Of a stretch of DNA of 64,000 nucleotides, positions 46,277-62,959 are shown one piece after another. The stretch comes from Clostridiaceae bacterium (GTDB taxonomy: Bacteria; Bacillota; Clostridia; Lachnospirales; Lachnospiraceae). The stretch is from assembly GCA_910575585.1 (NCBI GenBank), contig CAJTGF010000013.1, forward strand, positions 715 through 64,714, read 5' to 3'. The translations under genes were made by a program, and so were the position numbers. The notes below the pieces were generated by a model that was not told the origin of the DNA, did no database searches, and worked only from the letters and a program-made list of their open reading frames with translations. Within the stretch, counting starts at the first letter, position 1. Each line of letters opens with the position of its first letter.

Positions 46277-46343
46277 GTAAAAGTTACACAAAACCTCTGT
46301 TTTTTTACATGGAACGAAGAAAATAAAAAATTTGTCATATAAT
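46277..46343 (+). promoter_or_regulatory. LytTR-type operator and promoter of the peptide operon
   Basis: GTAAAAGTTACA (46277-46288) followed by ACCTC and, 21 bp after the first repeat, a second repeat preserved as TTACATGGAA (46305-46314). A -10 box TATAAT lies at 46338-46343. The whole 38-bp block aligns without gaps to the sites at 60263 and 62892. Direct repeats spaced 21 bp are the form bound by AgrA-like LytTR regulators. Confidence 0.78.
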
Positions 46344-46383
46344 GACATTGTCGCTAGTGAGTAGATGGAAGGAGCAATATTTT

Positions 46384-47913
46384 ATGGAAAATATAAGAGA
46401 ATATGGTGCTTTCTTTGCAAATTTGACACATGATAATTATGCAAGGCTCGGAAAACCTTTTAGGACAAAACAGAATTGTTATTATTATGATACAGGCACT
46501 GGAAAAGTCCTTCAGTGCAAGGAAAATGTATATAAGATTTTGTTACACTTATTTTCTGGTAAGAGTTTTGAGAGGCTGGAAGAGTGTGGAATTAATAACA
46601 GAGATTTGCTGGCAGCTTTATCAGAAATTAAAGAAGCGGTAGAGAAAGAAAATATCTTACAGGCACCAGAAGTAAAAGGCTTTCATGGAAACCATATAGA
46701 GTCGCTTGAAGAATGTATAAATGAAGACTTGGGACAGATTACACTTGAATTAACAGAGAGATGCAATTTAAGATGTGAATATTGTATTTATGGGGCAGAG
46801 AATGACGTATTTAGAAATTTTGGCAATCAAGATATGTCTTTTGAAACTGCAAAAAAAGCGATTGATTATGGAGTGGCACATTCGGGCGATGAATTGGCAG
46901 TTACATTTTATGGGGGAGAGCCACTTCTCATGTTTGATTTATTAAAGCAGTGTGTTGAGTATTGTCAGGGAATAAAAAATAAAAAAATAAACTTTGCCAT
47001 AACATCAAATTTGGTTCTTATGGATGAAGAAAAGGCTAAGTATATAGCTAGTATACCAGATTTTGTAGTGACATGCAGCCTGGATGGTCCAGAAGAAATA
47101 CAAAATCGTTATCGAAAATTTCCTAATGGAAAAGGCAGTTTTGATATTGTCATGCAAGGTTTAAAGAATATTACAATGGCATTAGGCAAAGAAGCCGCTA
47201 CACGATTAAACTTTAGTATGGTAATGACTCCGCCCTATGGGGTTGAAAAGTTTGATGTAATACAGAATTTTTTCAATTCATTAGAATGGTTGCCTAAAAA
47301 TACAGTTAAGAATGTAGCCTATGTCCAATATGGAAAAATTAAAGGGGAAAATGAGGATGAATATCGGAAATTAACAGTTGAAGAAATTGATCCGATTGGA
47401 GTATGGTCAGAAAAGCATATTAATGGTGGAAAAGAACTTGAGCAAGGAGGAATTTTTACTGCAAAAAAAATAGAGGATACTTTGATTAGAATCCATTTAA
47501 GGAGATTGCATGATAAGCCAATGGATACATTTTCATTCAATGGTTGCTGTATACCAGGCAGCAGGAGAATTTATATAACTGCTGATGGTAAATTTAAAAT
47601 TTGCGAAAGAATTGGACTTTCCCCATATATAGGAGATGTTGATAATGGTGTAGATATTAATATTGTTAAAAAACATTATATACAAGATTTTATGAATGAA
47701 TCTGTGAAATATTGTAATAATTGTTGGGCAGTTCATCTGTGTAGTGTATGTTATTCAGAGTGTTACAATGAGAATGGAATAGAAATTGAAAATAAACATG
47801 CATTATGTAATTCACAACGTTTTAACATGGAAAGAGGATTGATACAGTATCATGAAATATTAGAACATGATCCGGAATCGTTAGACTATATCAACCGTTT
47901 GGAAATTAGATAA
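46384..47913 (+). CDS. Radical SAM/SPASM peptide maturase
   Basis: A 509-residue enzyme predicted to form thioether crosslinks in the adjacent precursor. The radical SAM cluster is CNLRCEYC (C127, C131, C134). The C-terminal SPASM region has many cysteines (GCCIPGSRR; CNNCWAVHLCSVCYSECY). The N-terminal ~110 residues (GTGKVLQCKENVYKILLHLF) probably recognize the leader peptide. The layout matches Cys-rich-peptide maturases including the RumMc-type sactisynthases. The start is ATG 46384 after GGAAGGAG; the upstream frame to 46342 lacks a site. Confidence 0.88.
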   Translation: MENIREYGAFFANLTHDNYARLGKPFRTKQNCYYYDTGTGKVLQCKENVYKILLHLFSGKSFERLEECGINNRDLLAALSEIKEAVEKENILQAPEVKGFHGNHIESLEECINEDLGQITLELTERCNLRCEYCIYGAENDVFRNFGNQDMSFETAKKAIDYGVAHSGDELAVTFYGGEPLLMFDLLKQCVEYCQGIKNKKINFAITSNLVLMDEEKAKYIASIPDFVVTCSLDGPEEIQNRYRKFPNGKGSFDIVMQGLKNITMALGKEAATRLNFSMVMTPPYGVEKFDVIQNFFNSLEWLPKNTVKNVAYVQYGKIKGENEDEYRKLTVEEIDPIGVWSEKHINGGKELEQGGIFTAKKIEDTLIRIHLRRLHDKPMDTFSFNGCCIPGSRRIYITADGKFKICERIGLSPYIGDVDNGVDINIVKKHYIQDFMNESVKYCNNCWAVHLCSVCYSECYNENGIEIENKHALCNSQRFNMERGLIQYHEILEHDPESLDYINRLEIR

Positions 47914-47976
47914 ACCGTATATTATAGTGTAAAACTGCACTTTAATATAAATTTGCTATGAAGGGAGGTGTGTGGT

Positions 47977-48183
47977 ATGAAGTTAGTTAATCCTGTAGGA
48001 AGAACTGTTGCAACTGGTGTAGATGCTAAGTATGGAGAGATGAGAGCTTGTATGTGTTCCAGCGGATTCTCATCAGCAAGAGGGACTGTTGACGCTTGTG
48101 GACATTGTGGCTGCAATTGCAATGGAAACTATTCATACAATAGTTCAGATGCAGTTGGCACTAACCGTATTTCTATCGGCTAA
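47977..48183 (+). CDS. Ruminococcin-C-like six-cysteine RiPP precursor
   Basis: A 68-residue peptide. The leader (MKLVNPVGRTVATGVDAKYG) shares the M-K-x-V ... TG-x-D pattern I recall for ruminococcin C precursors. The core after R23 is 45 residues, begins ACMCSSG, and contains C25, C27, C41, C44, C46 and C48, with a glycine/asparagine-rich tail. Ruminococcin C1 has a CxC near the start but only four cysteines, so the second hairpin differs here. R23 directly before the core is a plausible trypsin site. AAGGGAGGTG lies six bases before ATG 47977. Sactipeptide or ranthipeptide chemistry is inferred. Confidence 0.82.
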   Translation: MKLVNPVGRTVATGVDAKYGEMRACMCSSGFSSARGTVDACGHCGCNCNGNYSYNSSDAVGTNRISIG

Positions 48184-48213
48184 TGTCAGAAGCTGTTTTA
48201 GGGCAGTGCAATT

Positions 48214-48263
48214 CCACCCAAGTAGTAGTTTTTCTCTTGGCAAGAAAATTACTACTTAGGTGG
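48214..48263 (+). promoter_or_regulatory. Long hairpin between precursor and transporter genes
   Basis: CCACCCAAGTAGTAG (from 48214) pairs with TTACTACTTAGGTGG (to 48263) through a ~20-bp stem with few mismatches and a loop of about 11 bases. Before the IS insertion it was followed by GGGGGG-TATAT-CCCCCC and ATTTTT, a second terminator-like hairpin. Such structures after a precursor gene usually let the peptide be made in excess over downstream genes. Confidence 0.78.
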
Positions 48264-48273
48264 TGGGGGGTAT

Positions 48274-49690
48274 CAATGTCGTCAACTTAAGCCGAAAATC
48301 TAGTAACTATAAATTTATGCGTATGCAAAAACCATTTGTTATTCCGTGATGACTCACTTTCCTCTTAAAATGTCTGTCTGGACGAATAATGGATCTTATG
48401 TTTTTGACGCGCTGAATCAACTGCTGCAGTTTATCCTTGTAACACCGCATATTTTTTAAACACCTGACATATCTGGAAACTGCACCTATGATGTAACTTC
48501 TGTTTAACTGGTATTTGTGTTTGCCACTGTTCAATTCTTCCCTGATTTCACTTTCAGCAGAGGATTTAATCAGTGCAGACAGGTTTGATATAAATAAAGC
48601 TGCATATAATTCCTGGCGAATTGCTTGGGGATTTTTCCCAGAAAAATTCTCCAACCGTGCCCTTGTTTTAAGTTCCCCATATTTCGTTTCTATTGACCAT
48701 CTTTTGTGGTAAAGGTCCTGATGGTAACACATATCCTGATGTCTTTCCAAAAGATTGCTGACAAGTATATGCGGTTCTTCCCCAGAGGTGGCTTTTATTA
48801 CACGAAGGCTGACAGTCCTGCCTTTGTGGATGTCTGATACGATATGCTCTCCGTCAGGGCATTCATTGACACATGCGAGAAAAGAGTGTGTACACCGAAT
48901 TAGATAAAACAACCCCTTATCCTCAAGTTCGTATATCAACTCTCTGGATGGATACCCTCGGTCAAACAGGATTAAGTTTTTGTATCCTTTGCCGTTTATG
49001 AGTGCCTCTGATGAGAGAAGCCTGTGGGCATGTTCCCTTTCTCCAACCGATATTCCTGTAAATACAGCATCCACAATCAGGTCATTCGTAACATCATAGA
49101 ATGCCGTTAGTCTTGCGCAAGGATAAGCGTGCTGGTTGCCGCCTTTTAAACCAAATTCAGTTTTGTTGTTTTTGTTATGGTCAAGGGCAATTTCCGAACC
49201 GTCAATAGCAAATACACGATATCCCTCCCATGTCTTGGTATGATTTGTAAATCGAAACAGGTCAGTAGATAAATGAAAAATATCTTCAAAAGCATGTGGT
49301 GATATTTTATAGCGTGCTTTTGAAAAAGCCTGTTTGGAAATGGAAATACCTTTTTTATCGAAAAATAAATCCAGTTCTGTAGTCAGTGACTTTTGCGGCA
49401 TACTCAACACAAAATACATGATATCTTGGAATGAAAGCTTTCTGTTTCTTGTAAAAGCAGTTTTTTCGAGACAGTATTTTTCTTTAAACGAAGCAGAAGA
49501 AATAAGGTCTTTCACATTTTTAATAAGCTGACAGATACTGTTTTTCTTGAACATAAGGATACCTCACAATCAATAAGATAATTAATTGCGATACAACATT
49601 TTTCGGCGTATTTGTCAAGTGTTTTTTTAATTTTAGAAATTATTTTTTCTGTGTAAGAAGGGACACGTTCGGCTTAAGTTGACGACATTG
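48274..49690 (-). mobile_element. IS4-family insertion sequence
   Basis: A 1417-bp element bounded by perfect 23-bp inverted repeats (48274-48296 and 49668-49690, starting CAATGTCGTCAAC). It is flanked by the exact 10-bp target duplication TGGGGGGTAT (48264-48273 and 49691-49700). It is inserted antisense to the peptide operon, in the G/C hairpin after the precursor. The target GGG-TATAT-CCC fits the GGG(N)5CCC preference reported for IS231A of the same family. Confidence 0.95.
48307..49554 (-). CDS. IS4-family DDE transposase
   Basis: A 415-residue transposase with the IS4 pattern: first Asp in FAIDGSEIALD, second Asp in LILFDRGYPSRELI, and the YREK signature YHKRWSIETKYGELK carrying the catalytic Glu. 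The C-terminus ends 33 bases from the left end of the element, and the reading frame is intact, so the copy may be active. It runs opposite to all neighbouring genes. Confidence 0.95.
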   Translation of the reverse strand: MFKKNSICQLIKNVKDLISSASFKEKYCLEKTAFTRNRKLSFQDIMYFVLSMPQKSLTTELDLFFDKKGISISKQAFSKARYKISPHAFEDIFHLSTDLFRFTNHTKTWEGYRVFAIDGSEIALDHNKNNKTEFGLKGGNQHAYPCARLTAFYDVTNDLIVDAVFTGISVGEREHAHRLLSSEALINGKGYKNLILFDRGYPSRELIYELEDKGLFYLIRCTHSFLACVNECPDGEHIVSDIHKGRTVSLRVIKATSGEEPHILVSNLLERHQDMCYHQDLYHKRWSIETKYGELKTRARLENFSGKNPQAIRQELYAALFISNLSALIKSSAESEIREELNSGKHKYQLNRSYIIGAVSRYVRCLKNMRCYKDKLQQLIQRVKNIRSIIRPDRHFKRKVSHHGITNGFCIRINL

Positions 49691-49729
49691 TGGGGGGTAT
49701 ATCCCCCCATTTTTAATGAGGAGGATTTT

Positions 49730-51556
49730 ATGTTTAAACATAAGTATATAAAAAATTTTATTTCCACAAAAAATACAATAGAATTTTTATGGAATGCATC
49801 AAAAAAGAATTTTACGTTACTTCTCATTTGTAATATATTAAGCGGTTTAGCAGTACCATGTGGTTTATTAGTGTGGAAGGAATTTATTAATTCTTTAATA
49901 AATCTAAAAACAGATAAATTAGACATGGTAATTATATGGCTGTGTTTTCATGGATTACTACAAATAATTACAGATGTATTATATTCTTGTTGTACTTATC
50001 TAAAAGATATGCAATCCGATTATGTTAATAAATATATTACAGCTAGGGTTTTAAATCAGGTTGATGAAATGGAAATGGAGCAGTTTGATGATACTATTGT
50101 ATATAATAAAATGTCAAAAATAAATAATGAGGCATTGTCTCGCTCTATTAGTGTAAGTGAAAACGTAATATTACTAGTAAGAAATCTAGTAGTTCTTTTT
50201 GGAGTGATAGGGATTTTATATAGTTATAATAAAGTCTTAGTATTTGCCGTATTACTTGCATATCTACCAGTATTTTGTGTTAATAATAAAATATATGATA
50301 GGCTGCACAATATATACAATGCAAGAATAGAAAAGCTGCGATTGATAGAGGTGTTGAAGGAAATATATACAAAGTATGAAAACATCAAGGAAATAAGGCT
50401 ATATGGTATAGAAGAATTTTTGAAAAATAAAGTTACTTCTATACTTGATAGATATATAAAACAAAACAAGTCAGTAAGAAAACAGAATTTGTGTCAATCG
50501 TCTTTGGCTAGGAGTATTCAATATATAGCAACATATGTTATGAAGTTATATGTCATAATTGATACGTTAAGGAAAGGGAACACAGTGGGAGATATTACAA
50601 TGTATATCAATTCCATTGATATACTTCAAGAATATGCAGGAAGTATTTTAAATACTCTTTCTACGATCTATAACGATAACTTATACATTCAAACACTATT
50701 TGAATTTTTGAGTAAGAACGAACTGGATGTTTCTGAACAGAAGATTTCTATTGATCATATTGAAACTTTAGAGTTTATAGATGTTAGTTTTAAATATCCT
50801 GGCTGTGACAAAATGGTATTGAGAAATATAAATATGCGTATTCAAGCAGGAAAATCATATTTGATAGTCGGGTTCAATGGGTCTGGTAAAACAACGTTAA
50901 TTAAGCTATTAATTGGAATATACAAACCAACTTCGGGGACTATATTAGTTAATGGCCAAGATATTAAAAAATATGATGTTCAACAATATAGAAAACTTAT
51001 CAGTGCAGTGTTTCAGGATTTTTTAAAATTGCCATTAAGTGTAAACGAAAACATTCAAATAGGGAACATTGGTGCCATTATGGATGAGAAAGATATTAAA
51101 AAAGCATCTAAAAAAGCTGATGCGGATGAATTTATATGTAAGTTACCTAATGGATACAATACTATATTACAAAGAGGTTGGAAGGATAGTGTTGATTTGT
51201 CAGGAGGACAGTGGCAAAAAATAGCATTAAGTAGGGCATATTTTTCTAATGCAGCTCTTATTGTTATGGATGAGCCAGCGGCTGCATTAGATGCTGCGGC
51301 AGAAGATGTTCTATATAGAAAAATATTAGAAATGATAAATAAAAAAACTTGCATAATGATATCACACAGGTTAACGACAGCACAAGTGGTAGATTGGATA
51401 TATGTAATGGATAATGGTAATTTAGTCGAAAGCGGAGATTTTGCGCAACTTATAAACAGTCATGGAGCGTTCCAGAAGTTGTATAATTTACAGGCTGAAA
51501 AGTATATGGTAAAGGAAAAAGGTGAAGATTATAATGCAAGGAATAGCATTAAATAA
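49730..51556 (+). CDS. ABC transporter half-exporter, probable peptide export
   Basis: A 608-residue protein with an N-terminal transmembrane domain of about six helices and a C-terminal ATPase: Walker A GFNGSGKTT near 381-389, signature LSGGQWQKIALSRA, Walker B ALIVMDEPAAALD. It has no N-terminal C39 peptidase, so leader removal must be done by another enzyme. The start is ATG 49730 after GAGGAGG. In the uninterrupted operon it would directly follow the precursor, supporting peptide export, possibly with self-immunity. Confidence 0.85.
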   Translation: MFKHKYIKNFISTKNTIEFLWNASKKNFTLLLICNILSGLAVPCGLLVWKEFINSLINLKTDKLDMVIIWLCFHGLLQIITDVLYSCCTYLKDMQSDYVNKYITARVLNQVDEMEMEQFDDTIVYNKMSKINNEALSRSISVSENVILLVRNLVVLFGVIGILYSYNKVLVFAVLLAYLPVFCVNNKIYDRLHNIYNARIEKLRLIEVLKEIYTKYENIKEIRLYGIEEFLKNKVTSILDRYIKQNKSVRKQNLCQSSLARSIQYIATYVMKLYVIIDTLRKGNTVGDITMYINSIDILQEYAGSILNTLSTIYNDNLYIQTLFEFLSKNELDVSEQKISIDHIETLEFIDVSFKYPGCDKMVLRNINMRIQAGKSYLIVGFNGSGKTTLIKLLIGIYKPTSGTILVNGQDIKKYDVQQYRKLISAVFQDFLKLPLSVNENIQIGNIGAIMDEKDIKKASKKADADEFICKLPNGYNTILQRGWKDSVDLSGGQWQKIALSRAYFSNAALIVMDEPAAALDAAAEDVLYRKILEMINKKTCIMISHRLTTAQVVDWIYVMDNGNLVESGDFAQLINSHGAFQKLYNLQAEKYMVKEKGEDYNARNSIK

Positions 51557-52706
51557 ACGAGTTAGACATTATATTTATCCAGTAGATAGTTCAGAGGAAA
51601 CGTATGTTGAGCTATTGGTGAAAGTAGGATCAGAACAGGATGGTAATAATAGAGGGGTGGCTCATTTCTTGGAACATATGCTATTGGGATTTGATCGAGT
51701 ATCAAAGACTGCACGTGAAAATTATGAGTATATATGGGGGAATACAAGTTTTACTTCAACAAGTTTTAAGATTCAATTAAAAAGAGGGCAAGAAAATAGC
51801 TTAAAGAATAGCTTAAAAATTTTGCGGGATATTTGTTTGGGTAAAACATTAGATGAGAGTCTTTTTGGAATGATTTTAAATGATGTTATAGATGAATTTC
51901 ATAGATTTTCATTTGATAAAAAAGAATCTGCATTGTTGCAGGAGCTATCTTATGGAAAGGCTTACTTTCCAATTGGTGAAAAAGAATATTTATATGCTTT
52001 GGATTATGGAAAAGTTTTAAGTTTTTTTAATAGATTCTATTCTAATAGCCCAATCGCACTGGTTGTAACAGGAAATATTACATATCAGTATGTAGAAAGT
52101 TTAATTGCAGAAATATTTGGTTCCGTTAATTTTGGGGAAAGACCTTCAAGTGAAATATTTCCGGAAGTTCAATGTAAAGAGTATTGTACCCTTGCATATA
52201 ATACTGAAAAAATCTTTATGATAAAAAGAAATATGAACAATTGCAGTTTAAAAAAGCGTGTTGTTGATGATTTATCATTTATTTTTTGTGAAGATATATT
52301 AGAGAGAGTTTATTTTACTATCTTAGATAAAAAATGTGATGTGCATTGTAAGCGAATTTTTTATGATAGTGAAAGACAATATGTTTGTATACAGTTAAAG
52401 AGCGAGGATAATGCAAAAATAGAGTTGGAAAATTGGCATAACATAGGGGAAAAACTGCATAAACAAGCTATTGAAATTTTAAGTGAAGAATTATTTGAAA
52501 AGATAAAACAGGAGTATTCTTTATGTATAGAAAAAATCAGTTGCATTACGTCAGAACAGTATATAGGTGAAATAGAAAAAAATTTTTTGTTTGAAACAGA
52601 AATATTTGAAAAGCAATTGTATATTGATATCATTACTCAGATTAAGTATCAATCAGTTTATGAAGAAGTCATAAGATTAGTGAATGAGTTAAGCAAGATG
52701 TTGTAA
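51534..52706 (+). CDS. M16-family zinc metallopeptidase
   Basis: A 390-residue protein with the inverted zinc motif HFLEH in NRGVAHFLEHMLLGF and a downstream acidic residue in NDVIDEFHRF, as in M16 (insulinase-type) peptidases. No signal peptide or membrane segment is visible, so it is probably cytoplasmic. It overlaps the ABC gene by 23 bases. Start ATG 51534 has AAAGGTGA upstream; GTG 51522 is the alternative. The likely job is cleavage of the leader or of exported peptide; M16 partners are common in radical-SAM peptide operons. Confidence 0.82.
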   Translation: MQGIALNKRVRHYIYPVDSSEETYVELLVKVGSEQDGNNRGVAHFLEHMLLGFDRVSKTARENYEYIWGNTSFTSTSFKIQLKRGQENSLKNSLKILRDICLGKTLDESLFGMILNDVIDEFHRFSFDKKESALLQELSYGKAYFPIGEKEYLYALDYGKVLSFFNRFYSNSPIALVVTGNITYQYVESLIAEIFGSVNFGERPSSEIFPEVQCKEYCTLAYNTEKIFMIKRNMNNCSLKKRVVDDLSFIFCEDILERVYFTILDKKCDVHCKRIFYDSERQYVCIQLKSEDNAKIELENWHNIGEKLHKQAIEILSEELFEKIKQEYSLCIEKISCITSEQYIGEIEKNFLFETEIFEKQLYIDIITQIKYQSVYEEVIRLVNELSKML

Positions 52707-52779: not shown

Positions 52780-53475
52780 ATGAGTGAGAAGATTCTTATT
52801 GTTGATGATGAACAAGAAATTGCTGATTTAGTTGCCTTATATTTGGAAAATGAAAATTTTGAGGTATATAAATATTATACGGCCGAAGATGCATTGAAAT
52901 ACATTAAAACTGAAACATTTGATCTTGCAATTTTGGATATTATGCTTCCAAATATAAGCGGCTTGCAGATTTGTCAGAAAATAAGAGAACGATATTGTTT
53001 TCCTGTTATTATGTTGACAGCAAAATCGCAAGAAATAGATAAAATAACAGGATTAACGTTAGGTGCAGATGATTATATAACAAAACCATTTTTACCATTA
53101 GAATTAGTTGCACGTGTAAAGGCACAGCTACGAAGATATAAGAAGTATAATACCAGTACAGAAAAAGAAGAAGAGGTTATATCGCATTCTGGGCTTCTGA
53201 TTAATATAAAAACACATGAATGTATTTTAAATGAAAAAAAATTGGAACTAACACCTACAGAGTTTTCTATTTTACGAATTCTATGCCAGAGAAAGGGAGA
53301 AGTGGTAAGTTCAGAGGAATTGTTTCATGAAATATGGGGTGATGAGTATTATTGTAAAAACAATAATACAATTACAGTACACATACGTCATTTGAGAGAA
53401 AAGATGCAGGATTCCTTTGAAGAGCCTAAGTATATAAAAACAGTATGGGGGTGCGGATATAAAATTGAAAAATAA
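52780..53475 (+). CDS. vanR: VanR-type response regulator
   Basis: A 231-residue OmpR-family regulator. The receiver domain has acidic residues D9/D10, the phosphoacceptor D53 (ILDIMLP) and the lysine in ITKPF. A C-terminal winged helix follows (LTPTEFSILRILCQRKGEV; IKTVWGCGYKIEK). The overall sequence fits VanR of G-type clusters. It overlaps vanS by 11 bases. The expected target is the promoter of the resistance genes starting at vanW. A role in peptide operon control cannot be excluded from position alone. Confidence 0.88.
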   Translation: MSEKILIVDDEQEIADLVALYLENENFEVYKYYTAEDALKYIKTETFDLAILDIMLPNISGLQICQKIRERYCFPVIMLTAKSQEIDKITGLTLGADDYITKPFLPLELVARVKAQLRRYKKYNTSTEKEEEVISHSGLLINIKTHECILNEKKLELTPTEFSILRILCQRKGEVVSSEELFHEIWGDEYYCKNNNTITVHIRHLREKMQDSFEEPKYIKTVWGCGYKIEK

Positions 53476-54598
53476 AAGACCTAAGATCATAAAGATTGCT
53501 TTTATATGTATAATAACTATATGTGCTTGCATAATGATTTTCTATCTGGTTGATTACATTTGGAATGGCAGCTTTGTAGATTGGTTTGAACATAACTATA
53601 TGATTACAGAATTCAATTATATACCAGAATCTGGTCAAGATGGAATCATACACAGACCTCAATGGTATAAATTGAAATACCTTTTGTTAGGAGTCTTTAT
53701 TTTAATTTGTTTGGCATGGATTATAACTGTTTTTGTAACTATTCGACTATCTGCAAAGTCCAGTCTGCAAAAAACTGTGACAATAGCGAGTGATATGATT
53801 TACAAGTACATGACACAGGAGAAACAGGCGATAGAAATATTTCCAAAGGAATATGCAGAGATTTCTACACAAATGGCAGAGATAAAGAGTGAAATGCAAA
53901 GACATGAGCAGATATTGAAAGAAGAGTCGGAACGAAAAAATGATTTAATTGCATATTTAGCACATGACTTAAAAACACCATTGACATCAATTATAGGTTA
54001 TTTGAGCTTATTAAGAGAAGTGCCGGATATGCCGATAGAACAGAGGATAAAATATGTAGATATTACTTTAAAAAAATCTCATCGTTTGGAAATACTAATT
54101 AATGAGTTTTTTGAAATCACTCGTTATAATCTTCAAAATATTGATTTAGAAAAAGAAAACTTAGATCTTTCTTATATGCTATATCAAATGGCAGATGAAT
54201 TTTATCCACTGTTGCAAGAGCATGGAAACACAATAAAACTAAATGTTCCAGAAAATGTAATGATCTTAGGTGATCCTGATAAACTTGCTAGAGTATTTAA
54301 TAATATTTTAAAGAATGCCATTGCATATAGTTACCGAGATACAGAAATACAAATTTGGATAGAGGTTGAAAGTGCAAAAACGAGAATATATTTTAAAAAT
54401 TCTGGAAGAACTATACCAGCAAAAAAACTAGATTCTATTTTTGAAAAATTTTTCCGTCTGGATGATGCTAGAGGAGAAAAAACTGGTGGAGCGGGTTTAG
54501 GTCTTGCCATAGCAAAAGAGATTGTTCTTTTACATAAAGGAGAAATTATAGCAGAGAGCAATAATGAAGTGACTATATTTTGTGTTGTACTCCCATAA
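53465..54598 (+). CDS. vanS: VanS-type sensor histidine kinase
   Basis: A 377-residue membrane kinase: two transmembrane segments (residues ~10-30 and ~75-97) with a short outside loop, a linker, the H-box AHDLKTPLTSIIGYLSLL with H167, an N-box (RVFNNILKNAIAYS), and a G-box (GGAGLGLAIAKEIV). It resembles VanS proteins of D-Ala-D-Ser operons. It would sense glycopeptide or wall damage and phosphorylate VanR. TTG 53465 is the start, overlapping vanR. Confidence 0.88.
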   Translation: MKNKRPKIIKIAFICIITICACIMIFYLVDYIWNGSFVDWFEHNYMITEFNYIPESGQDGIIHRPQWYKLKYLLLGVFILICLAWIITVFVTIRLSAKSSLQKTVTIASDMIYKYMTQEKQAIEIFPKEYAEISTQMAEIKSEMQRHEQILKEESERKNDLIAYLAHDLKTPLTSIIGYLSLLREVPDMPIEQRIKYVDITLKKSHRLEILINEFFEITRYNLQNIDLEKENLDLSYMLYQMADEFYPLLQEHGNTIKLNVPENVMILGDPDKLARVFNNILKNAIAYSYRDTEIQIWIEVESAKTRIYFKNSGRTIPAKKLDSIFEKFFRLDDARGEKTGGAGLGLAIAKEIVLLHKGEIIAESNNEVTIFCVVLP

Positions 54599-54664
54599 TT
54601 CTTTAAGCAGTGCAGAACACAATCTTAGGATTTTATTAGGAATTAAATAATTTAATATTAAAAT

Positions 54665-54714
54665 AAAGCCTGTTTGTTTTTGGTAAGATAAGTACCAAAA
54701 TAGACAGGCTTTTT
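54665..54714 (+). terminator. Long hairpin between vanS and vanW (terminator or attenuator)
   Basis: AAAGCCTGT (54665-54673) pairs with ACAGGCTTT (54704-54712), and an inner TTTTGGTA/TACCAAAA stem closes the loop; a short T-run follows. It ends only 14 bases before vanW, so it separates the regulator and resistance units or controls entry into them. Confidence 0.75.
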
Positions 54715-54728
54715 GAAAGGAATGCAAT

Positions 54729-55553: not shown

Positions 55554-55571
55554 ACATTTTAGGAGGAAATT

Positions 55572-56714
55572 ATGAATTTATCAGTCGCAAAAAATATACC
55601 GAATGCAAAGGAGGTAAAAGAGAAGATAGATCAGAGAATGTACGAAGAAAAATCGAAATCAATAAAAACAGTAGCGGTTCTATTTGGCGGATGTTCTCCA
55701 GAATATAGTGTATCTTTGCAGTCAGCCAGTGCTGTGATTCAACAAATTGATCAGACTAGATATGATTTGGTTTTAATTGGAATTTCAAAGAAAGGGGAAT
55801 GGTTTTTGTTTGAGGGAGATCCTCAAATAATAGAAGATGACAGTTGGTGCAATAAAAAGTATTGTGTACCTGTCTATGTATCACAAAATCGGACAGAGAG
55901 GTGTGTTGTGATTTTTAGAAATGAAAAATTAGAGAAAAAGCATATTGATGTGGCGCTTCCTATAATGCATGGCAAAAATGGAGAGGATGGAACGGTTCAA
56001 GGAGTGTTTGAATTGGCAGGCATACCCATAATAGGTTGTGGTGTTTTAGCATCTGCATTATGTATGGATAAGGATAGAGCCCATAAAATGGTTTCAACAG
56101 TCGGTGTGTCAGTTCCAAAATCATTTACGATAAATAAATCAATGGATGTAAAAGGATTTATGAATAAAGCGAATGAAATGGGTTACCCGCTGTTTGTAAA
56201 ACCTATAAGAGCTGGTTCGTCTTTTGGGATTACGAAAATATCTGATTGTAATGAATTTATAGTAGCTTGTGAAAGAGCATTTACTTATGATGAAAACATC
56301 ATTATTGAGGAATTTATAGAAGGGTTTGAAGTAGGGTGTGCTGTATTGGGTAATGAAAAATTAATTGTCGGTGAGATTGATGAAATAGAATTATCAAAAG
56401 GATTTTTTGACTTTGATGAAAAATATTCATTAAAAACTTCTTCAATTCATGTTCCAGCGAGAATTAGTGATGAAACAGCAAAAAGAATCAAAGAAACGGC
56501 GAAATTAATATACAAGTGTTTGGACTGTAAAGATTTTGCAAGAGTAGACATGTTTCTGACAAGTAATGAGGAAATAGTATTTAATGAGGTAAATACTATT
56601 CCTGGTTTTACTTCCCACAGTAGATATCCCAATATGATGAAAGCAGCGGGCATTACTTTTAAGCAAATAGTAGAACGGTTATTAGAATTAGGAGGAGAAA
56701 TTTGTGAAAGTTAA
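55572..56714 (+). CDS. vanG: VanG-type D-alanine-D-serine ligase
   Basis: A 380-residue ATP-grasp ligase. Family blocks include VAVLFGGCSPEYSVSLQSASAV, LPIMHGKNGEDGTVQGVFEL, PLFVKPIRAGSSFGI and FNEVNTIPGFTSHSRYPNMM. The omega-loop segment ELSKGFFDFDEKYSLKTSS fits VanG/VanC-like D-Ala-D-Ser ligases and not D-Ala-D-Lac enzymes. It makes the altered peptidoglycan precursor that lowers vancomycin binding. AGGAGGAAATT before ATG 55572 supports this start, giving an extra ~30 residues at the N-terminus compared with usual VanG length. Confidence 0.9.
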   Translation: MNLSVAKNIPNAKEVKEKIDQRMYEEKSKSIKTVAVLFGGCSPEYSVSLQSASAVIQQIDQTRYDLVLIGISKKGEWFLFEGDPQIIEDDSWCNKKYCVPVYVSQNRTERCVVIFRNEKLEKKHIDVALPIMHGKNGEDGTVQGVFELAGIPIIGCGVLASALCMDKDRAHKMVSTVGVSVPKSFTINKSMDVKGFMNKANEMGYPLFVKPIRAGSSFGITKISDCNEFIVACERAFTYDENIIIEEFIEGFEVGCAVLGNEKLIVGEIDEIELSKGFFDFDEKYSLKTSSIHVPARISDETAKRIKETAKLIYKCLDCKDFARVDMFLTSNEEIVFNEVNTIPGFTSHSRYPNMMKAAGITFKQIVERLLELGGEICES

Positions 56715-57462
56715 AATATCAAAAGAGGATACTAAAAAAGGAAATTTAATTCTTGTTAATTCCAATTATCCCTTGACACATTTTCCAATGGAGAAAAGTA
56801 TGACAACAATATTGATTGGTGATAGAGAGATATTATTGAATCATCAAGCGGCAACGATTCTTGAACAATTACTGGAAAGTTTGCATTACAAAGGAGAGAT
56901 TGTTGCAGTGAGTGGTTTTAGGTCACAGGAAGAACAAGAAGAAATATGGAATATGTCAATTCAAAAGGAAGGAATAGAATATACGAATAAGTTTGTTGCA
57001 GTTCCGGGGCATAGTGAACATCAGACAGGTTTAGCGGTTGATTTAGCAAAAGCGCAAAAACAAATAGACAATGTTTGCCCAGATTTTCCCAGAACAGGTT
57101 TTTGTGATAAATTCAGACAAATTGCTCCTAAATATGGTTTCATAGAGAGATATATAGCTGGAAAAGAACGTATTACAGGAATTGGTGAAGAACCGTGGCA
57201 TTTTCGTTATGTGGGATTTCCGCATTCTATGATTATCTCTAAGCTGAACTTGGTATTGGAGGAATACATTGAGTTTCTAAAAAAGTCAACAAGCTTTAAT
57301 GCACCATATATTTATCATTACAGTGGAACAGACATAGAAATTTCCTATATGCAAATAGAAGCTTCGGAAAGTTTGGAATTAGATATTCCACAAAGAGTTC
57401 CTTACTTAATCTCAGGTACAAATGAAGGTGGTGTGATAGTAAGTTTATGGAGAGAACGATGA
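56704..57462 (+). CDS. vanXY: VanXY-type D,D-dipeptidase/carboxypeptidase
   Basis: A 252-residue zinc peptidase with the VanY/VanX signatures SEHQTGLAVDLAKA (zinc His and Asp) and GEEPWHFRYVGFPHS (catalytic Glu and zinc His). It destroys normal D-Ala-D-Ala ends so that D-Ala-D-Ser precursors dominate. The core is followed by an extension of ~70 residues. No membrane anchor is visible, as expected for VanXY. GTG 56704 overlaps vanG by 11 bases. No separate vanY is present. Confidence 0.88.
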   Translation: MKVKISKEDTKKGNLILVNSNYPLTHFPMEKSMTTILIGDREILLNHQAATILEQLLESLHYKGEIVAVSGFRSQEEQEEIWNMSIQKEGIEYTNKFVAVPGHSEHQTGLAVDLAKAQKQIDNVCPDFPRTGFCDKFRQIAPKYGFIERYIAGKERITGIGEEPWHFRYVGFPHSMIISKLNLVLEEYIEFLKKSTSFNAPYIYHYSGTDIEISYMQIEASESLELDIPQRVPYLISGTNEGGVIVSLWRER

Positions 57463-58469
57463 AATTTAAAAGGTATGGAGGGATAGATCATTTTCGTATG
57501 ATAGCTGCATTTTTGGTGGTAGCTATCCATATAGCGCCGCTATCATATTGGAATGAAAATATAGATTATTTAATTACTTATTGTTTAGGCAGAGTAGCAG
57601 TTCCTTTTTTCTTTATGATAACAGGATATTTTGTAATAGCACCATATATTAAAAACGGATTTGCGACAAAAAGAAAAATATATAGATATTTAATTAAGAA
57701 TGGAGTGATGTATTTAGGGGCAACCATTTTGTACATGCCTATAAATTTATATGCGGGTAATTTCCGAATAGATTTTTGGGATATAATTAAAATGTTAATT
57801 ATGGACGGTACATTTTATCATTTATGGTACTTTCCTGCAATGATAATCGGTTGCATTATTATAATAGGATTGTGCAAAAAAAGTGTAGCAGGGGCAGCAT
57901 TGTTTTCAATGGCAATGTATGTTATTGGACTGTTAGGGGACAGTTATTACGGATTTACAAGTAAGGTGCCTATATTAGTGGCAATTTTTAATGTAGTGTT
58001 TTCAATAAGCAGTTATACAAGAAATGGTGTCTTTTTTGCCCCTGCATTTTTAGTTCTTGGAACATTTATTGCTTTGCAGAAGGGCCATTATCGAATTAAA
58101 GATTGTGTAGTCGGAGTTTCAGTATCAGTATTATTTATGTTACTAGAAGGATATATAACGTATTCGATTGGGTGGCAGAAACACAATAGCATGTACATTT
58201 TCTTGCTTCCAACAATGTATTTTTTGTTCCACCTTTTATTGTTAGTTCAAACAAAAGCTGCTGTATGGATGCGAGATTTTTCAGGAATGATTTATGTGAT
58301 TCACCCGGCAATCATTATATTACTGAGAGGAATAGCAAAATATACAAGAAGCACGACGGTATTGATAAAGAATACATTTATTCAGTATATATGTGTGATT
58401 CTGCTATCTGTAGCAGTAGCTACAGTTTGTAGTTTTATCATTAGAAAGAGGAAATTAAAATGTGTTTAA
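57459..58469 (+). CDS. vanTm: Membrane half of split VanT (acyltransferase-like)
   Basis: A 336-residue integral membrane protein with about ten hydrophobic segments, beginning GGIDHFRMIAAFLVVAIHIAPL, the acyltransferase-3-like pattern found in the N-terminal half of VanT. In most vanG and vanC operons this domain is fused to the racemase; here it ends KCV-stop and the racemase is a separate gene, as in vanL. It may take up or hand over L-serine. ATG 57459 overlaps vanXY by four bases (ATGA) and has GGAGAGA upstream; ATG 57447 is the alternative start. Confidence 0.85.
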   Translation: MKFKRYGGIDHFRMIAAFLVVAIHIAPLSYWNENIDYLITYCLGRVAVPFFFMITGYFVIAPYIKNGFATKRKIYRYLIKNGVMYLGATILYMPINLYAGNFRIDFWDIIKMLIMDGTFYHLWYFPAMIIGCIIIIGLCKKSVAGAALFSMAMYVIGLLGDSYYGFTSKVPILVAIFNVVFSISSYTRNGVFFAPAFLVLGTFIALQKGHYRIKDCVVGVSVSVLFMLLEGYITYSIGWQKHNSMYIFLLPTMYFLFHLLLLVQTKAAVWMRDFSGMIYVIHPAIIILLRGIAKYTRSTTVLIKNTFIQYICVILLSVAVATVCSFIIRKRKLKCV

Positions 58470-59572
58470 AAGAAAGAGCATGGATTGAAGTTGATTTAGA
58501 TAATTTGAAATGGAATGTTTTACAAATAAAAAAAATACTTCATCAAAATACTAAAATAATGGCTGTTGTCAAAGCTAATGCATATGGACATGGGATTCGA
58601 GTGGTAATTCCAGAATTAATAAAAGTGGGTATTCATGATTTTGCAGTTGCAACTCTTTCGGAGGCAATAGAATTAAGAAAATTAATGGCAGAAGGAACAA
58701 TACTTATCTTGGGTTATACATTACCAGAAAAAGCATACTTATTGGAAAAGTTCAAATTGACACAATCAATAATTGATTTTCATTATGCACAAAAGCTGGA
58801 ATTGCAGAAGATGTCAATTGATGTGCATATTGCAATAAATACTGGAATGAATCGTATAGGTATTAATTGCAACGAAAAAGGTCAGATTATGAAAATAGTC
58901 AAGTCTAAATGTTTAAATGTGACAGGAATATATAGTCATTTATGTGTTGCAGATAGTTTTAGTTCAGATGATGTTGAATTTACGAAGTTTCAAATCTCAA
59001 AGTTTATGCAGTTAAATTCTTGGCTGAAAGCAAATGGGTATAATGTACCAATTCATATACAAAGTAGTTATGGAATTATTAATTATAGTCATTTAGAATG
59101 TGATTATGTAAGACCAGGAATTATTTTATATGGATGTTATAGTGATAATACAAAGGGCAGCATGGAGCTGAAACCAGTTTTGAGTTTAAAATCAAGAGTT
59201 ATAGAGATTAGGAGCGTAGACAACGGACAGTCTGTTGGATACGGTAGAGCATATAAAATAGAGGGGAAGAAACAGGTTGCGGTTATTGCAATAGGATATG
59301 CTGATGGCGTTCCTAGAAATATTAACTATGCTGATGTTTTAATTCGTGGGAAGCGATTTAGAATAATTGGCAGAATATGTATGGATCAATTAATGGTAGA
59401 GTTGGAAGAAAATTGTGATATGGAAATAGGGGATGAGGCAGTATTGATTGGAAAGTCTGGTAATGAAGAAATATCTGTAGAAGATTTTTCTTTTAATTGT
59501 GATACTATTTCAAACGAAATTTTAAGCAGAATGGGAAATAGACTTCCAAGAATAATAAAAAATGAATTTTAG
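58460..59572 (+). CDS. vanTr: Racemase half of split VanT (serine/alanine racemase)
   Basis: A 370-residue PLP enzyme. K38 in VVKANAYGHG binds PLP, the second catalytic tyrosine is in SVGYGRAYKI, and RICMDQLMVEL is the family C-terminal block. It would convert L-serine to D-serine for the VanG ligase. The start codon lies inside the last codons of the membrane half (10-base overlap, different frame) with AGAGGA eight bases upstream. Translational coupling, or occasional frameshifting to a fused VanT, is possible. Confidence 0.9.
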   Translation: MCLKERAWIEVDLDNLKWNVLQIKKILHQNTKIMAVVKANAYGHGIRVVIPELIKVGIHDFAVATLSEAIELRKLMAEGTILILGYTLPEKAYLLEKFKLTQSIIDFHYAQKLELQKMSIDVHIAINTGMNRIGINCNEKGQIMKIVKSKCLNVTGIYSHLCVADSFSSDDVEFTKFQISKFMQLNSWLKANGYNVPIHIQSSYGIINYSHLECDYVRPGIILYGCYSDNTKGSMELKPVLSLKSRVIEIRSVDNGQSVGYGRAYKIEGKKQVAVIAIGYADGVPRNINYADVLIRGKRFRIIGRICMDQLMVELEENCDMEIGDEAVLIGKSGNEEISVEDFSFNCDTISNEILSRMGNRLPRIIKNEF

Positions 59573-59596
59573 TTTAACAGTTGTAAGGAGATGAGT

Positions 59597-60076
59597 ATGA
59601 GTTTAAGGAGAAAGATTATTGATTATTCAAGAGGCAATAATTTAAGTAATTTTTGGAGATTATATCGGTTGCAAAAAAAAGCGAAGAATGGATTATATAG
59701 AGATATTTTGACATTTGTGATGAGTAGGTATGCACATCGTCATGGAGGATATATTGGTCCCGACACAATATTCAATAGTGTGCCAGTGCTTCCTCATGGA
59801 TTACATGGGATTTTTATTTCTCGTTATGCAGTAATAGGTGAAGAATGTTGGATTTATCAGAATGTAACTATTGGAGAAGTAAATAAAAAAGCACCTATAA
59901 TAGGGAATAATTGTTTGATTGGAGCAGGTGCAATTATCGTTGGAGGTATAAAGATCGGTGACAACGTAAAAATTGGAGCAGGTGCCGTGGTTAGTACAGA
60001 CATTTCCGATGGTTGCACGGTTGTTTCACAACCAATGCATGTAATAGAAAGAAAACTTGAGCAGTCCTGTGATTGA
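59597..60076 (+). CDS. Short serine acetyltransferase-like hexapeptide-repeat protein
   Basis: A 159-residue left-handed beta-helix acetyltransferase. It has the CysE-type blocks GPDTIFNSVPVLPHGLHGIFIS, the hexapeptide repeats (IGEECWIYQNVTIGEV; IGAGAIIVGGIKIGDNVKIGAG) and the terminal VVSTDISDGCTVV. It is shorter than CysE, lacking the N-terminal helical domain. Start ATG 59597 lies six bases after AAGGAG. It is the last gene of the van operon, 24 bases after the racemase. It could act on serine or on a wall or peptide sugar; the substrate is not evident. Confidence 0.78.
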   Translation: MSLRRKIIDYSRGNNLSNFWRLYRLQKKAKNGLYRDILTFVMSRYAHRHGGYIGPDTIFNSVPVLPHGLHGIFISRYAVIGEECWIYQNVTIGEVNKKAPIIGNNCLIGAGAIIVGGIKIGDNVKIGAGAVVSTDISDGCTVVSQPMHVIERKLEQSCD

Positions 60077-60135
60077 TAAAATTGTTTGGATTGGTAAAAA
60101 AGTAGTTATAAATAAATGGGAATTGTTATGAATGG

Positions 60136-60161
60136 AGTGGCTGAATTCAGCCACTTTTTTT
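60136..60161 (+). terminator. Terminator of the van operon
   Basis: AGTGGCTGAA and its exact inverse TTCAGCCACT form a 20-bp palindrome (60136-60155) followed by seven T. Confidence 0.92.
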
Positions 60162-60262: not shown

Positions 60263-60329
60263 GTGAAAATTACATATAAAATCGTAATTATTACTTGAAA
60301 AAAGAATGTGGTAAAAAATCATGTATAAT
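60263..60329 (+). promoter_or_regulatory. LytTR-type operator and promoter of the agr regulatory genes
   Basis: GTGAAAATTACATATAA (60263-60279) and, 21 bp after its start, GTAATTATTACTTGAAA (60284-60300), aligning without gaps to the sites at 46277 and 62892. The -10 box TATAAT is at 60324-60329, 24 bases after the operator, the same spacing as at the peptide operon. Confidence 0.75.
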
Positions 60330-60450
60330 TAATTGGCAGAAATAGTATTTCAAAATGTATAAATATGACTTTAAATAGGAAGTATATATGTATTAAAAAG
60401 TCTTATAAGTAAATGTATTATTAATCTATACATTTTAAAAGGAGATTTTT
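60330..60450 (+). promoter_or_regulatory. Leader of the agr regulatory operon with an inverted repeat
   Basis: AAAATGTATA (60352-60361) and TATACATTTT (60427-60436) are exact inverses flanking the leader. They may be operator half-sites for the HTH regulator encoded just downstream, or fold in the RNA. Confidence 0.5.
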
Positions 60451-60846
60451 ATGATACAAGATTCCAATGAAAGTCATAGTGCGGGTAAAAGAGAAAGTAG
60501 CAAAGTAAGAGAATTAAATACAGACGAAGGTAATTTGTATGTAGAAATAGGGCTGAGATTGCGTAGGATAAGGCGTGAAAAAGATTATACGCAGGAGCAA
60601 ATGGCAGAGATGCTTGGTATTAGTACTGCATATTATGGGAAAATAGAAAGAGGTGTTAATAGTCTTTCGATAAAAAGGCTACACACCTTAAATGTTAAAT
60701 TGGGTATAGATATAACATATCTGATTACTGGTAAAGACAACAATACATTATCTATGGGTCAAATTTTAGCTGAATGTCCAATAAGAAAACGGCACGATTT
60801 AGAGCAGATCATAAAACATGCTTTAAATTTAATGGAGAATACCTGA
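60451..60846 (+). CDS. XRE-family HTH regulator of the agr-like locus
   Basis: A 131-residue protein with a Cro/CI-type helix-turn-helix (IGLRLRRIRREKDYTQEQMAEMLGISTAYYGKIERG) and a short C-terminal helical region. AAAAGGAG precedes ATG 60451. It is co-transcribed with the response regulator that begins 28 bases later. It may repress its own operon through the inverted repeats in the leader. Its position suggests tuning of the quorum-sensing switch. Confidence 0.82.
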   Translation: MIQDSNESHSAGKRESSKVRELNTDEGNLYVEIGLRLRRIRREKDYTQEQMAEMLGISTAYYGKIERGVNSLSIKRLHTLNVKLGIDITYLITGKDNNTLSMGQILAECPIRKRHDLEQIIKHALNLMENT

Positions 60847-60874
60847 GCTTAATTTGCTTAAAGGAATGATGAAA

Positions 60875-61603
60875 ATGATCGAAATAGCTATTTGTGATGA
60901 TGAAAAAGTAATAACTTCTGATATAGAAGAACGTATAAGAGCAATTAGTAAAAAATTATGTGTATCAATAAATATAGATGTGTTCTTTGATGGATTAACA
61001 TTGACGGATTATATTATAAATCAGAAAGCAAAGTATGATATTATCTATATTGATATAGAGATGAAAAGTGAAAATGGGGTAGATGCTGCCAGAAAAATCA
61101 GACTGTTTGACAAAGATGTATTATTGATTTATGTGACAAATCATGAAAGTTTTGCAAAAGAAGTATTTGAAGTATCTGCATTTCGCTTTATTACAAAACC
61201 TATTTCAAATGAAATATTTGAAAAGTATTTCATAAGTGCAATAGATAAAATTAGACAGACACCACATTTTTTTCAGTTTCAATACAATAAAGTACATTAC
61301 AGATTGCCACTCAATCAAATAATATATTTTCAAAGTGATAAGAGAGTAACATATATTAATATTGGAACGGAAATTAGAAAGTGCTATGAAAAATTAAATT
61401 CGATTGAGCAAAATTTGAAGCAAAAGGGGATTTATTTTTTTAGAACACATCAATCTTTTTTAGTTAATCCCAAATACGTTGAAGTATATATGTATGATAC
61501 AATGCAATTACATGATGGGACAGTGTTAAGTATTAGTGAAAATCGAAGAAAAACTGTTAATGAATTATACTGTAAGATAAAAGGAGATTCGATAATTGTT
61601 TAG
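60875..61603 (+). CDS. agrA: AgrA-like LytTR response regulator
   Basis: A 242-residue regulator with a CheY-like receiver (IEIAICDDEKVI; phosphoacceptor Asp in IIYIDIEMKSENG) and a C-terminal LytTR DNA-binding domain (YRLPLNQIIYFQSDKRVTYI; FFRTHQSFLVNPKYV). LytTR proteins bind paired repeats 21-22 bp apart, the architecture of the three operators in this window. ATG 60875 was chosen because AAAGGA lies nine bases upstream. It overlaps the kinase gene by eight bases. Confidence 0.88.
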   Translation: MIEIAICDDEKVITSDIEERIRAISKKLCVSINIDVFFDGLTLTDYIINQKAKYDIIYIDIEMKSENGVDAARKIRLFDKDVLLIYVTNHESFAKEVFEVSAFRFITKPISNEIFEKYFISAIDKIRQTPHFFQFQYNKVHYRLPLNQIIYFQSDKRVTYINIGTEIRKCYEKLNSIEQNLKQKGIYFFRTHQSFLVNPKYVEVYMYDTMQLHDGTVLSISENRRKTVNELYCKIKGDSIIV

Positions 61604-62891
61604 TTATAAGACAAATTTACTGTTATATATTATAGCAACTTTTATTTGCATTATTATTTTAAACGTTTACTTTTCAGGATTTTTTCAAAAGCGAAAAAGA
61701 GTGGCTAACTGGATCATATATTTTGTATATATGGCATGGCAGATGTTTTTATTTACAGAGTCTAACTTTCCTTCCTACATAAATTTGGCCGTTGGATTGA
61801 TTTTGAATAGTTTGGTTTCGCTAATTTGCTTTAAGGGAAGTGCTATTCAAAAAGTTGCATTGTCCGGTATACTAAGTATTTTGTGGACGCTATCAGAATT
61901 TTTAGTTGGTTATTTTTTTATAGCGTTGGGTATGGATTATCAATATCCTCAAGCAGTAGGAGCATTGATTTCAGAAATTATTGTTTTAATTTTGATATAC
62001 TGTTTGAGTAGATATTTTCAAATTGAGAATATAAAAAATTTACCTATGAAATGTTATCTTATGCTTTTATTTTTACCCATTGGTAGTCTGTTTATTGTTT
62101 ACAAAATCTTTATGTATGGAAGTTTACTGGAACAGGGATTAGCAATAAAAGAATCAGCAATATGTGTAATAATAATGTTGTTCATTAATTTTCTGGTTTT
62201 TAGATTATGTTTGTTATTAGCTGATGAGCTAGTTCTGAGGAGATATAATGCTGTATATACACAACAGTTAGAAATATATAGCAAGAATATTCAAGAAAAT
62301 AAAATTGCGATGGCAGAATATCATAATGCGAAACATGATATAAAACAACATTTTATTTCATTATTATGTATGTTACAAAAACAACAGTATGAAATGGCGG
62401 AAGAATATTTAGATAATCTAGTTGAGGATAATAGGAAAAACTGGAATATATCCAGAACGGAAAACTTGATTGTTGATGCGATTATTAATGCTAAGTATTC
62501 TTTGATGAAAACACTTGGAATTGAGTGTTTTGTTGATGTACATATACCTGTATGGCTTCCGTTTGAAATGGCTGATCTCAGTGTATTAATTGGCAATGTC
62601 TTAGACAATGCCATTGAGGCAAACAATGCTGAAATGAAGAATAAGTATATAAAAATATATATGGCATATGACAAAAACATCTTAATCACTACAGTCATAA
62701 ATTCATATGATGGTGAGTTAATAAAAGATAAAACTGGAAGGATTCTAACTCGGAAACCAGATAAGTCTACTCATGGATTTGGATTAAGATCTATTGAAAA
62801 AATTGTACATAAATATCATGGATCGGTAGTAATAGAAAATACCCAAGAGGAATTTAAAATTATATTTATATTGATTGATAACAAAAGATAG
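61596..62891 (+). CDS. agrC: AgrC-like GHKL sensor kinase
   Basis: A 431-residue membrane kinase. The first ~210 residues hold about six transmembrane segments. The cytoplasmic part has the phosphoacceptor region KHDIKQHF and a GHKL ATPase domain (LIGNVLDNAIEANN; HGFGLRSIEKIVHKYHG). It would sense the processed AgrD peptide and activate the LytTR regulator. TTG 61596 lies eight bases inside agrA after AAAGGAG. Confidence 0.88.
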   Translation: MFSYKTNLLLYIIATFICIIILNVYFSGFFQKRKRVANWIIYFVYMAWQMFLFTESNFPSYINLAVGLILNSLVSLICFKGSAIQKVALSGILSILWTLSEFLVGYFFIALGMDYQYPQAVGALISEIIVLILIYCLSRYFQIENIKNLPMKCYLMLLFLPIGSLFIVYKIFMYGSLLEQGLAIKESAICVIIMLFINFLVFRLCLLLADELVLRRYNAVYTQQLEIYSKNIQENKIAMAEYHNAKHDIKQHFISLLCMLQKQQYEMAEEYLDNLVEDNRKNWNISRTENLIVDAIINAKYSLMKTLGIECFVDVHIPVWLPFEMADLSVLIGNVLDNAIEANNAEMKNKYIKIYMAYDKNILITTVINSYDGELIKDKTGRILTRKPDKSTHGFGLRSIEKIVHKYHGSVVIENTQEEFKIIFILIDNKR

Positions 62892-62959
62892 GTAAAAGTT
62901 ACATATAACCTCGTAAAAGTTACATGGAAAAAAATTAATGATAAAAATGAGTGTATGAT
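62892..62959 (+). promoter_or_regulatory. LytTR-type operator and promoter of agrD-agrB
   Basis: Two identical 13-bp repeats, GTAAAAGTTACAT, at 62892-62904 and 62913-62925, exactly 21 bp apart. A -10-like TATGAT lies at 62954-62959. This is the best-conserved of the three sites and defines the consensus. Confidence 0.82.

Follow-up and report, generated by a model that had tools for sequence, protein, structure and literature searches.

The 64,000-nucleotide stretch of Clostridiaceae bacterium DNA analysed here (the window; contig CAJTGF010000013.1 of assembly GCA_910575585.1) holds an operon for a radical SAM sactipeptide maturase and a cysteine-rich precursor peptide, a vanG-type gene region and an agr-like signalling locus (Table 1), in a region that we read as a conjugative element with cargo. 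All the components of an agr-type system are encoded at the signalling locus, namely an AgrB-family protein, an adjoining AgrD-type precursor, a membrane GHKL histidine kinase and a response regulator with a LytTR domain. A 38-bp block recurs before the peptide operon (site A), before the regulator operon (site B) and before agrD-agrB (site C). Judging from sequence comparisons, these blocks are very probably operators of the AgrA-like LytTR regulator, which would link feedback, signalling and the peptide.

Predicted LytTR-type operators at three promoters of the window

A sequence-only reading of the window had proposed the three blocks as a LytTR regulon, and they are indeed present where it placed them, on the same strand and alignable without gaps. 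Their pairwise identities are 25, 29 and 29 of 38 positions, and the top two window matches of each block are the other two blocks, the next best reaching 23–24 of 38. Site C, which starts at the base right after the agrC stop codon, contains two perfect copies of GTAAAAGTTACA 21 bp apart; with up to three mismatches this arrangement gives one match in the window and none in 100 shuffles.

Two studies describe LytTR operators as pairs of 9-bp repeats that are separated by 12 bp (in some cases 11 or 13) and lie upstream of the -35 box (PMC6193735, PMC2714321). Sites A–C have this repeat geometry: in each, two direct repeats with a period of 21 bp closely precede a predicted -10 box, which starts 24–25 bp beyond the block, as had been claimed. 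The operator consensus would be about GTAAAARTTACAT, with a period of 21–22 bp and a -10 box 29 nt further on.

Table 1 Features of the peptide operon and the agr-like locus, in window coordinates
Feature	Position	Strand	Remarks
Terminator-like hairpin, insulates the peptide operon from the upstream element gene	46212..46251	+	18 pairs, then ATTTTTTT
Site A, predicted LytTR-type operator before the radical SAM/peptide operon	46277..46314	+	half-site pair score 19.8
Predicted -10 box TATAAT, peptide operon	46338..46343	+	29 nt past second TTAC of site A
Radical SAM/SPASM sactipeptide maturase, RumMC-related	46384..47913	+	PF04055 68 bits; NF035951 (RumMC) 550.7, below cut-off 720
Cys-rich precursor peptide, Apre_1838 sactipeptide family	47968..48183	+	TIGR04067 55.9 bits, cut-off 45
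IS4-family insertion sequence between precursor and exporter genes	48274..49690	-	transposase 48307-49554; PF01609, NF033592 175.1 bits
ABC exporter (membrane and ATPase domains)	49730..51556	+	PF00005, PF00664 (translated from 49724)
M16-type peptidase homologue, candidate leader peptidase	51534..52706	+	PF00675, PF05193 (translated from 51522)
Terminator-like hairpin between van region end and site B	60134..60157	+	
Site B, predicted LytTR-type operator before the operon of helix-turn-helix, response regulator and AgrC genes	60263..60300	+	
Predicted -10 box TATAAT, regulator operon	60324..60329	+	29 nt past site B
XRE-type helix-turn-helix gene, first in regulator operon	60451..60846	+	PF01381 50.8 bits
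AgrA-like response regulator (receiver and LytTR domains), proposed site binder	60869..61603	+	PF00072, PF04397 above cut-off
AgrC-like GHKL histidine kinase	61596..62891	+	PF14501 85.4 bits; six hydrophobic segments in N-terminal half
Site C, predicted LytTR-type operator before agrD-agrB	62892..62929	+	two perfect 12-mers 21 bp apart
Predicted -10 box TATGAT, agrD-agrB	62954..62959	+	30 nt past site C
agrD-like autoinducer precursor	63003..63146	+	TIGR04223 24.0 bits, cut-off 19
agrB-like peptide-processing protein	63148..63720	+	PF04647 98.5 bits, cut-off 23

We examined how rare the block is in its own genome (6,126,376 bases in 253 contigs). An IUPAC pattern built from the three sites, with up to three mismatches allowed, matches at four places, all inside 20 kb of the window's contig (C13), and the reversed pattern matches nowhere in the genome. 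A pattern from sites B and C only finds the same four places, recovering site A with two mismatches and again giving no match when reversed; because its seven N at positions 22–28 mask part of site A's departure, this is not a fully blind test. The fourth place, site D, lies just past the window at window coordinate 66263, and a matrix scan located a weaker fifth site, site E, likewise just past the window at 64057. The proposed three sites are thus real, whereas the number of sites is at least four and probably five, the count of three having been set by the window edge. Nor is the block scattered over many unrelated positions: of its seven matches in 397 genomes, six lie at agr loci of this type and one beside a LytTR remnant. 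Sites B, C, D and E also recur in identical form in a Eubacteriaceae bacterium record (L006) whose regulator is 100% identical; that stretch ends short of site A and is not independent evidence.

The motif recurs in the agr loci of relatives

A search for the regulator over 397 genomes of the family, presumably Lachnospiraceae since G076 matches the Lachnospiraceae record L007, gave 61 matches in 46 genomes with E up to 1e-30. In the same 397 genomes the 38-bp pattern (up to three mismatches) has its seven matches in four, namely four in the own genome and one each in G025, G159 and G131, and the reversed pattern has none. G025 and G159 share one common 12.7-kb element with regulators 60% identical to that of the window, and the match lies in the agrC-agrD gap; in G025 a counterpart of site B stands at the same place before the regulator operon, with a TATAAT at 29 nt. 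The most similar regulator, 77% identical, is found in G076, where two repeat pairs with a 22-bp period precede the agrD-like and agrB-like genes. In G131 (L048:8511-8888) the match lies directly downstream of a C-terminal remnant of a LytTR domain (33 amino acids, 45% identity, E 3e-4). No agr genes were seen near it, and we do not take it as a chance match because the LytTR remnant adjoins it.

A motif-free search for direct repeats with a period of 20–23 in the gaps around 20 regulator genes led to the same kind of sequence. TTACA-type pairs appeared in the window and in L007, L044, L050, L054 and L063, as well as on the other strand in L056, while the remaining 13 loci had other repeats or none. 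For held-out statistics, a half-site matrix was built from the element's own five sites only and applied to 56 loci (523,490 bases) covering 58 of the 61 regulator matches, with the own contig, G025:C33 and G159:C51 left out. A separate 10-row matrix has two rows, G025H and G104D, out of register by one base, as their leave-one-out scores show, and the held-out statistics do not draw on it. Pairs scoring above 18 number 17 at a spacing of 21 bp and 4 at 22 bp, with 0–1 at each of 13 other spacings (15 to 29); above 14 the corresponding numbers are 27, 8 and 0–6. By comparison, 12 shuffles gave means of 0.08 (above 18) and 1.9 (above 14) at 21 bp, and 11 control loci (168,325 bases) contained 0 and 2 pairs, respectively.

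Pairs above 14 at 21 or 22 bp fill 35 rows in 23 of the 56 held-out loci, nine rows standing shortly before an AgrD-like open reading frame (ORF). An AgrB ORF is present in 18 of the 56 loci, and 9 of 19 agrB upstream regions carry a pair at 21 or 22 bp, compared with none at eight control spacings. Gene families, operators, their spacing, the -10 distance and the conservation at relatives' agrD promoters can all be read directly from the DNA. The expectation that the block would be conserved in homologous loci was borne out for the agr sites, in G025, in G076 and in a part of the held-out loci, and the relatives point to an agr-type LytTR operator.

Weighing the operator reading and its alternatives

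Several findings weigh against the operator reading, some of them touching the motif in general and others site A in particular. No pair above 14 occurs in 33 of the 56 held-out loci or in 10 of the 19 agrB regions, so regulators of this kind do not all go with the motif. Among the 35 rows, L007 and L051 record the same site on both strands, L047 and L061 lie in coding sequence, and L053 and L080 enter the counts as near copies. In a hand-picked set of 23 sites, 21 (one by a tie) have their best TATAAT-like hexamer starting 28–30 nt beyond the second TTAC; the exceptions are a site in G125 and site E, whose -10 box is ambiguous, with ties at 24 and 34 nt and a TATTAT at 29 nt as a close second. 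The promoter scan was overall no richer than its shuffles, and among the 60 of 99 promoter-like rows listed none uses the -10 boxes of sites A, B or C, which fits the missing -35 boxes. Moreover, binding, phosphorylation, activation as the direction of control and dependence on cell density are all steps that we infer.

As for site A, its second half is degenerate, with a half-site score of 4.5 versus 15.2 for the first half, and is the weakest second half among the four pattern sites. In about 700 bp upstream of nine other radical SAM genes, the best pairs score 1.6–14.0 (L122 14.0, L123 13.3, the others 1.6–10.3) versus 19.8 at site A, so the expected conservation in homologous loci fails for the peptide operon, and the peptide link looks locally recruited and particular to this element. 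Both findings would also suit a different reading, in which sites B and C are genuine operators, site A only resembles one, being decayed or without function (as a by-product of duplication, for example), and the peptide operon is not controlled by cell density. We regard this as unlikely, since site A is among the four whole-genome matches and immediately precedes the maturase start, with a terminator-like hairpin ahead of it and a perfect TATAAT precisely 29 nt on, and strongly unequal half-site scores are seen in other sites too. We therefore retain site A as a predicted operator of the radical SAM/peptide operon, a link drawn from sequence, position and -10 distance, as the earlier reading had it.

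Which protein reads the sites is a separate matter. Residues 190–196 of the regulator are FFRTHQS, which fits the published LytTR motif FhRhHRS (PMC4227749) and points to the regulator as the binder. Solved structures match receiver domains only. An alternative binder is the XRE-type protein encoded at 60451, which would repress or activate all sites; its gene comes first in the site B operon, and in G025, which has counterparts of both sites, the operon likewise begins with a homologue (56% identity). However, among 18 loci scanned an XRE match was found only in L044 and L063. Likewise, 10 of 11 held-out loci with a pair above 14 (L007, L047, L050, L051, L053, L054, L055, L056, L058 and L061, the exception being L063) have no XRE gene, an absence limited by contig ends in some loci, such as L047. 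With the helix-turn-helix gene missing from 10 of the 11 operator-bearing loci checked, the LytTR protein being the common factor, and 21-bp direct repeats being the published LytTR pattern in the two studies cited above (PMC6193735, PMC2714321), the LytTR regulator is the likely binder, and control by the XRE-type protein appears quite improbable.

The sites could also be read by another LytTR regulator of the host, in which case the agr genes of the element would be targets rather than the controller. A second agr-like locus does exist in the genome, on G000:C106 (L062), with several LytTR regulator-like matches and a regulator 33% identical to that of the element. Yet this locus has no operator pair above 14, which indicates that the motif goes with the regulator type of the element; the whole-genome pattern searches match C13 only, and in other genomes the motif accompanies regulators similar to the element's own. 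We accordingly give control by another host regulator very little weight. That the motif appears to travel with the regulator type is indirect support for the predicted binding. Chance repeats, although the intergenic DNA is rich in A+T, are practically negligible as an explanation, given the zero counts in the reversed-pattern and shuffle controls and the sharp 21-bp peak in the held-out loci.

A proposed feedback circuit and its known counterparts

These data are best read as agr signalling with positive feedback, acting on a local regulon that comprises four or five promoters. AgrB would process the AgrD peptide and export it as a cyclic signal, which AgrC would sense and answer by phosphorylating the regulator. 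A regulator dimer would then bind the two half-sites just upstream of promoters that have a -10 box and no evident -35 box, and activate them. Through sites B and C the regulator would raise expression of agrD-agrB and of the operon that encodes it and the kinase, closing a positive feedback loop, and the sequence evidence supports the earlier proposal that these two are autoregulation sites. Site A would make the genes of the sactipeptide maturase and precursor respond to this signal as well, site E would drive the gene of a peptidoglycan-binding protein, and site D would drive a short transcript towards a relaxase gene. As to the signal, an alignment of 11 AgrD-like sequences (window 63003-63146, L044, L007, L050, L053, L054, L056, L058, L063, L093 and L097) shows an invariant Cys and, five residues on, an invariant His, mostly followed by Gln/Asp-Pro, which suggests a five-residue ring with a processing site before the His.

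In the plantaricin (pln) system of Lactobacillus plantarum C11, the signal is a bacteriocin-like peptide pheromone and not an AgrD/AgrB cyclic peptide, and its bacteriocins are not radical SAM products, unlike the sactipeptide here. What the two regulons share is quorum control through LytTR-type regulators: PlnC/PlnD bind two 9-bp repeats, separated by 12 bp, immediately before the promoter boxes of several bacteriocin operons and of their own operon (PMC2714321). The agr system of Staphylococcus aureus, with AgrA acting at P2/P3, shares the agrB, agrD, agrC and agrA gene types (PMC4227749). The locus described here differs from it in having two operons with a third gene in front, a different repeat sequence and a sactipeptide cargo on a mobile element, with no RNAIII-like RNA shown. 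The kind of regulon is thus already known from plantaricin and staphylococcal agr.

The peptide operon has relatives of its own. In the ruminococcin C cluster of Ruminococcus gnavus, a RumMC-related maturase, a Cys-rich precursor and an exporter are likewise found, and no regulator is named for RumC in the part of the source at hand (PMC6779426). The description of our peptide as ruminococcin-C-like is imprecise, since the RumMC-related maturase scores below the RumMC cut-off and the precursor fits the Apre_1838 sactipeptide family (Table 1), from which a product with sulfur-to-alpha-carbon cross-links would be expected. The Apre_1838 plasmid clusters of Anaerococcus prevotii (pAPRE01) and Sarcina sp. 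JB2 (p2) have the same order of maturase, precursor and ABC exporter, with maturases 40–42% identical. Next to the cluster on pAPRE01 is a two-component pair that looks OmpR-type and includes a HAMP kinase, on p2 no adjoining regulator was seen, and neither cluster has an upstream operator pair above 14.0. Quorum sensing also controls a radical SAM peptide in tryglysin of Streptococcus mutans, an Rgg/SHP-controlled radical SAM peptide system; there, a cytoplasmic Rgg receptor and an SHP signal do the work, not agr/LytTR (PMC8092268).

Three things look new: a predicted radical SAM sactipeptide in such a regulon, the carriage of the regulon by a mobile element, and an operator definition for this agr group. 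In a literature search that was thin in subscription journals, no paper turned up that described a sactipeptide under agr control, a conjugative element carrying an agr regulon, or operators for agr loci of this kind in the family. The operator definition offers a means to find agr targets in related gut bacteria.

Cargo genes and the mobile element

The IS4-family element between the precursor and exporter genes has 22-bp perfect terminal inverted repeats and a 10-bp flanking duplication and sits within a hairpin-rich stretch, and it may uncouple the exporter and peptidase genes from site A.

The van genes (52780-60076) sit after the peptidase gene and before site B. Scores pass the model cut-offs for the ligase (VanG model, 555.2, cut-off 495), VanR (389.1, 350), VanW (413.2, 365) and the racemase part of VanT-G (472.5, 460), and stay below them for VanS (334.2, 400) and the VanXY models (220.8, cut-off 500, and 214.9, cut-off 250). 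The idea that the vanG operon takes part in the agr feedback did not hold up. We rejected direct agr control, as the vanR upstream gap contains no operator pair and the best pair within 700 bp (13.6) falls in the coding region of the peptidase; the highest-scoring promoter-like site found (11/12) stands directly upstream of vanR, and a hairpin separates the end of the van region from site B.

Beyond the window lie site E with the peptidoglycan-binding protein gene and then site D; a relaxase and MobC are encoded there on the opposite strand, and a Tn916-type integrase is present too. The integrase has an Integrase_DNA domain (PF02920, 67.8; the Tn916 arm-binding domain) together with Phage_integrase, and the relaxase belongs to PF03432. 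The left part of the window adds a VirB4-like ATPase of the CD1110 family (942.9 bits, cut-off 325), a TrbL/VirB6-like protein (TrbL_2) and a further relaxase. A tyrosine integrase, a relaxase and a VirB4-type ATPase, the hallmarks of an integrative and conjugative element of the Tn916-integrase kind, are thus all present. The contig has two relaxase genes, at 7136-8680 and 67356-68783 in window coordinates, and a serine recombinase lies at 11726-13345; together with this recombinase, the relaxase at 7136-8680 makes a composite element possible.

Site E (L008:771-1931; window coordinates 64057-65217) precedes an ORF on the scale of 24 codons and a 296-amino-acid protein with a peptidoglycan-binding domain (PF01471), whose catalytic part has no Pfam match. 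Downstream of site D (L008:2977-3350; window coordinates 66263-66636) a transcript of about 300 nt is predicted, with a strong terminator at its end. The 304-nt stretch folds unusually well (z -5.7). We considered an RNAIII-like RNA and came to reject or at least weaken this reading, as much of the folding comes from the strong terminator hairpin. Moreover, next to its relaxase gene G270 has an ORF of the same length as the 29-amino-acid basic ORF of site D (77% DNA identity over 173 bases), and because that copy has no operator, the ORF would belong to the backbone of the element, which further weakens the RNAIII-like reading. The site D stretch finds matches in 5 of 299 genomes, which outside the own genome and G270 cover the terminator part only.

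We tentatively suggest, as a possibility that we hold to be rather less than even, that this is a self-contained regulon on a conjugative element, whose own signal would act on a feedback loop, the sactipeptide, the peptidoglycan-binding protein and a transcript facing the relaxase gene. The element, and not the host chromosome, would then time the attack on neighbours and perhaps its own movement, and the same agr module and operator would serve different cargo elsewhere, as with the AMP-ligase gene of G025/G159. If true, a mobile element with vanG-type genes would also carry a cell-density switch of its own that governs an antimicrobial-type peptide, and would tie signalling to horizontal transfer and to competition among gut bacteria.

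On the element common to G025 and G159, an AMP-ligase-like ORF (15058-16701, minus strand) is preceded by a third, weaker pair (L044:16815, matrix score 23.2); this ORF is possibly other cargo under the same operator. Two scans of viral contigs found no relative. The window also encodes a group II intron-type reverse transcriptase/maturase (609-2420) and a very long ORF of 3415 amino acids (28984-39231).

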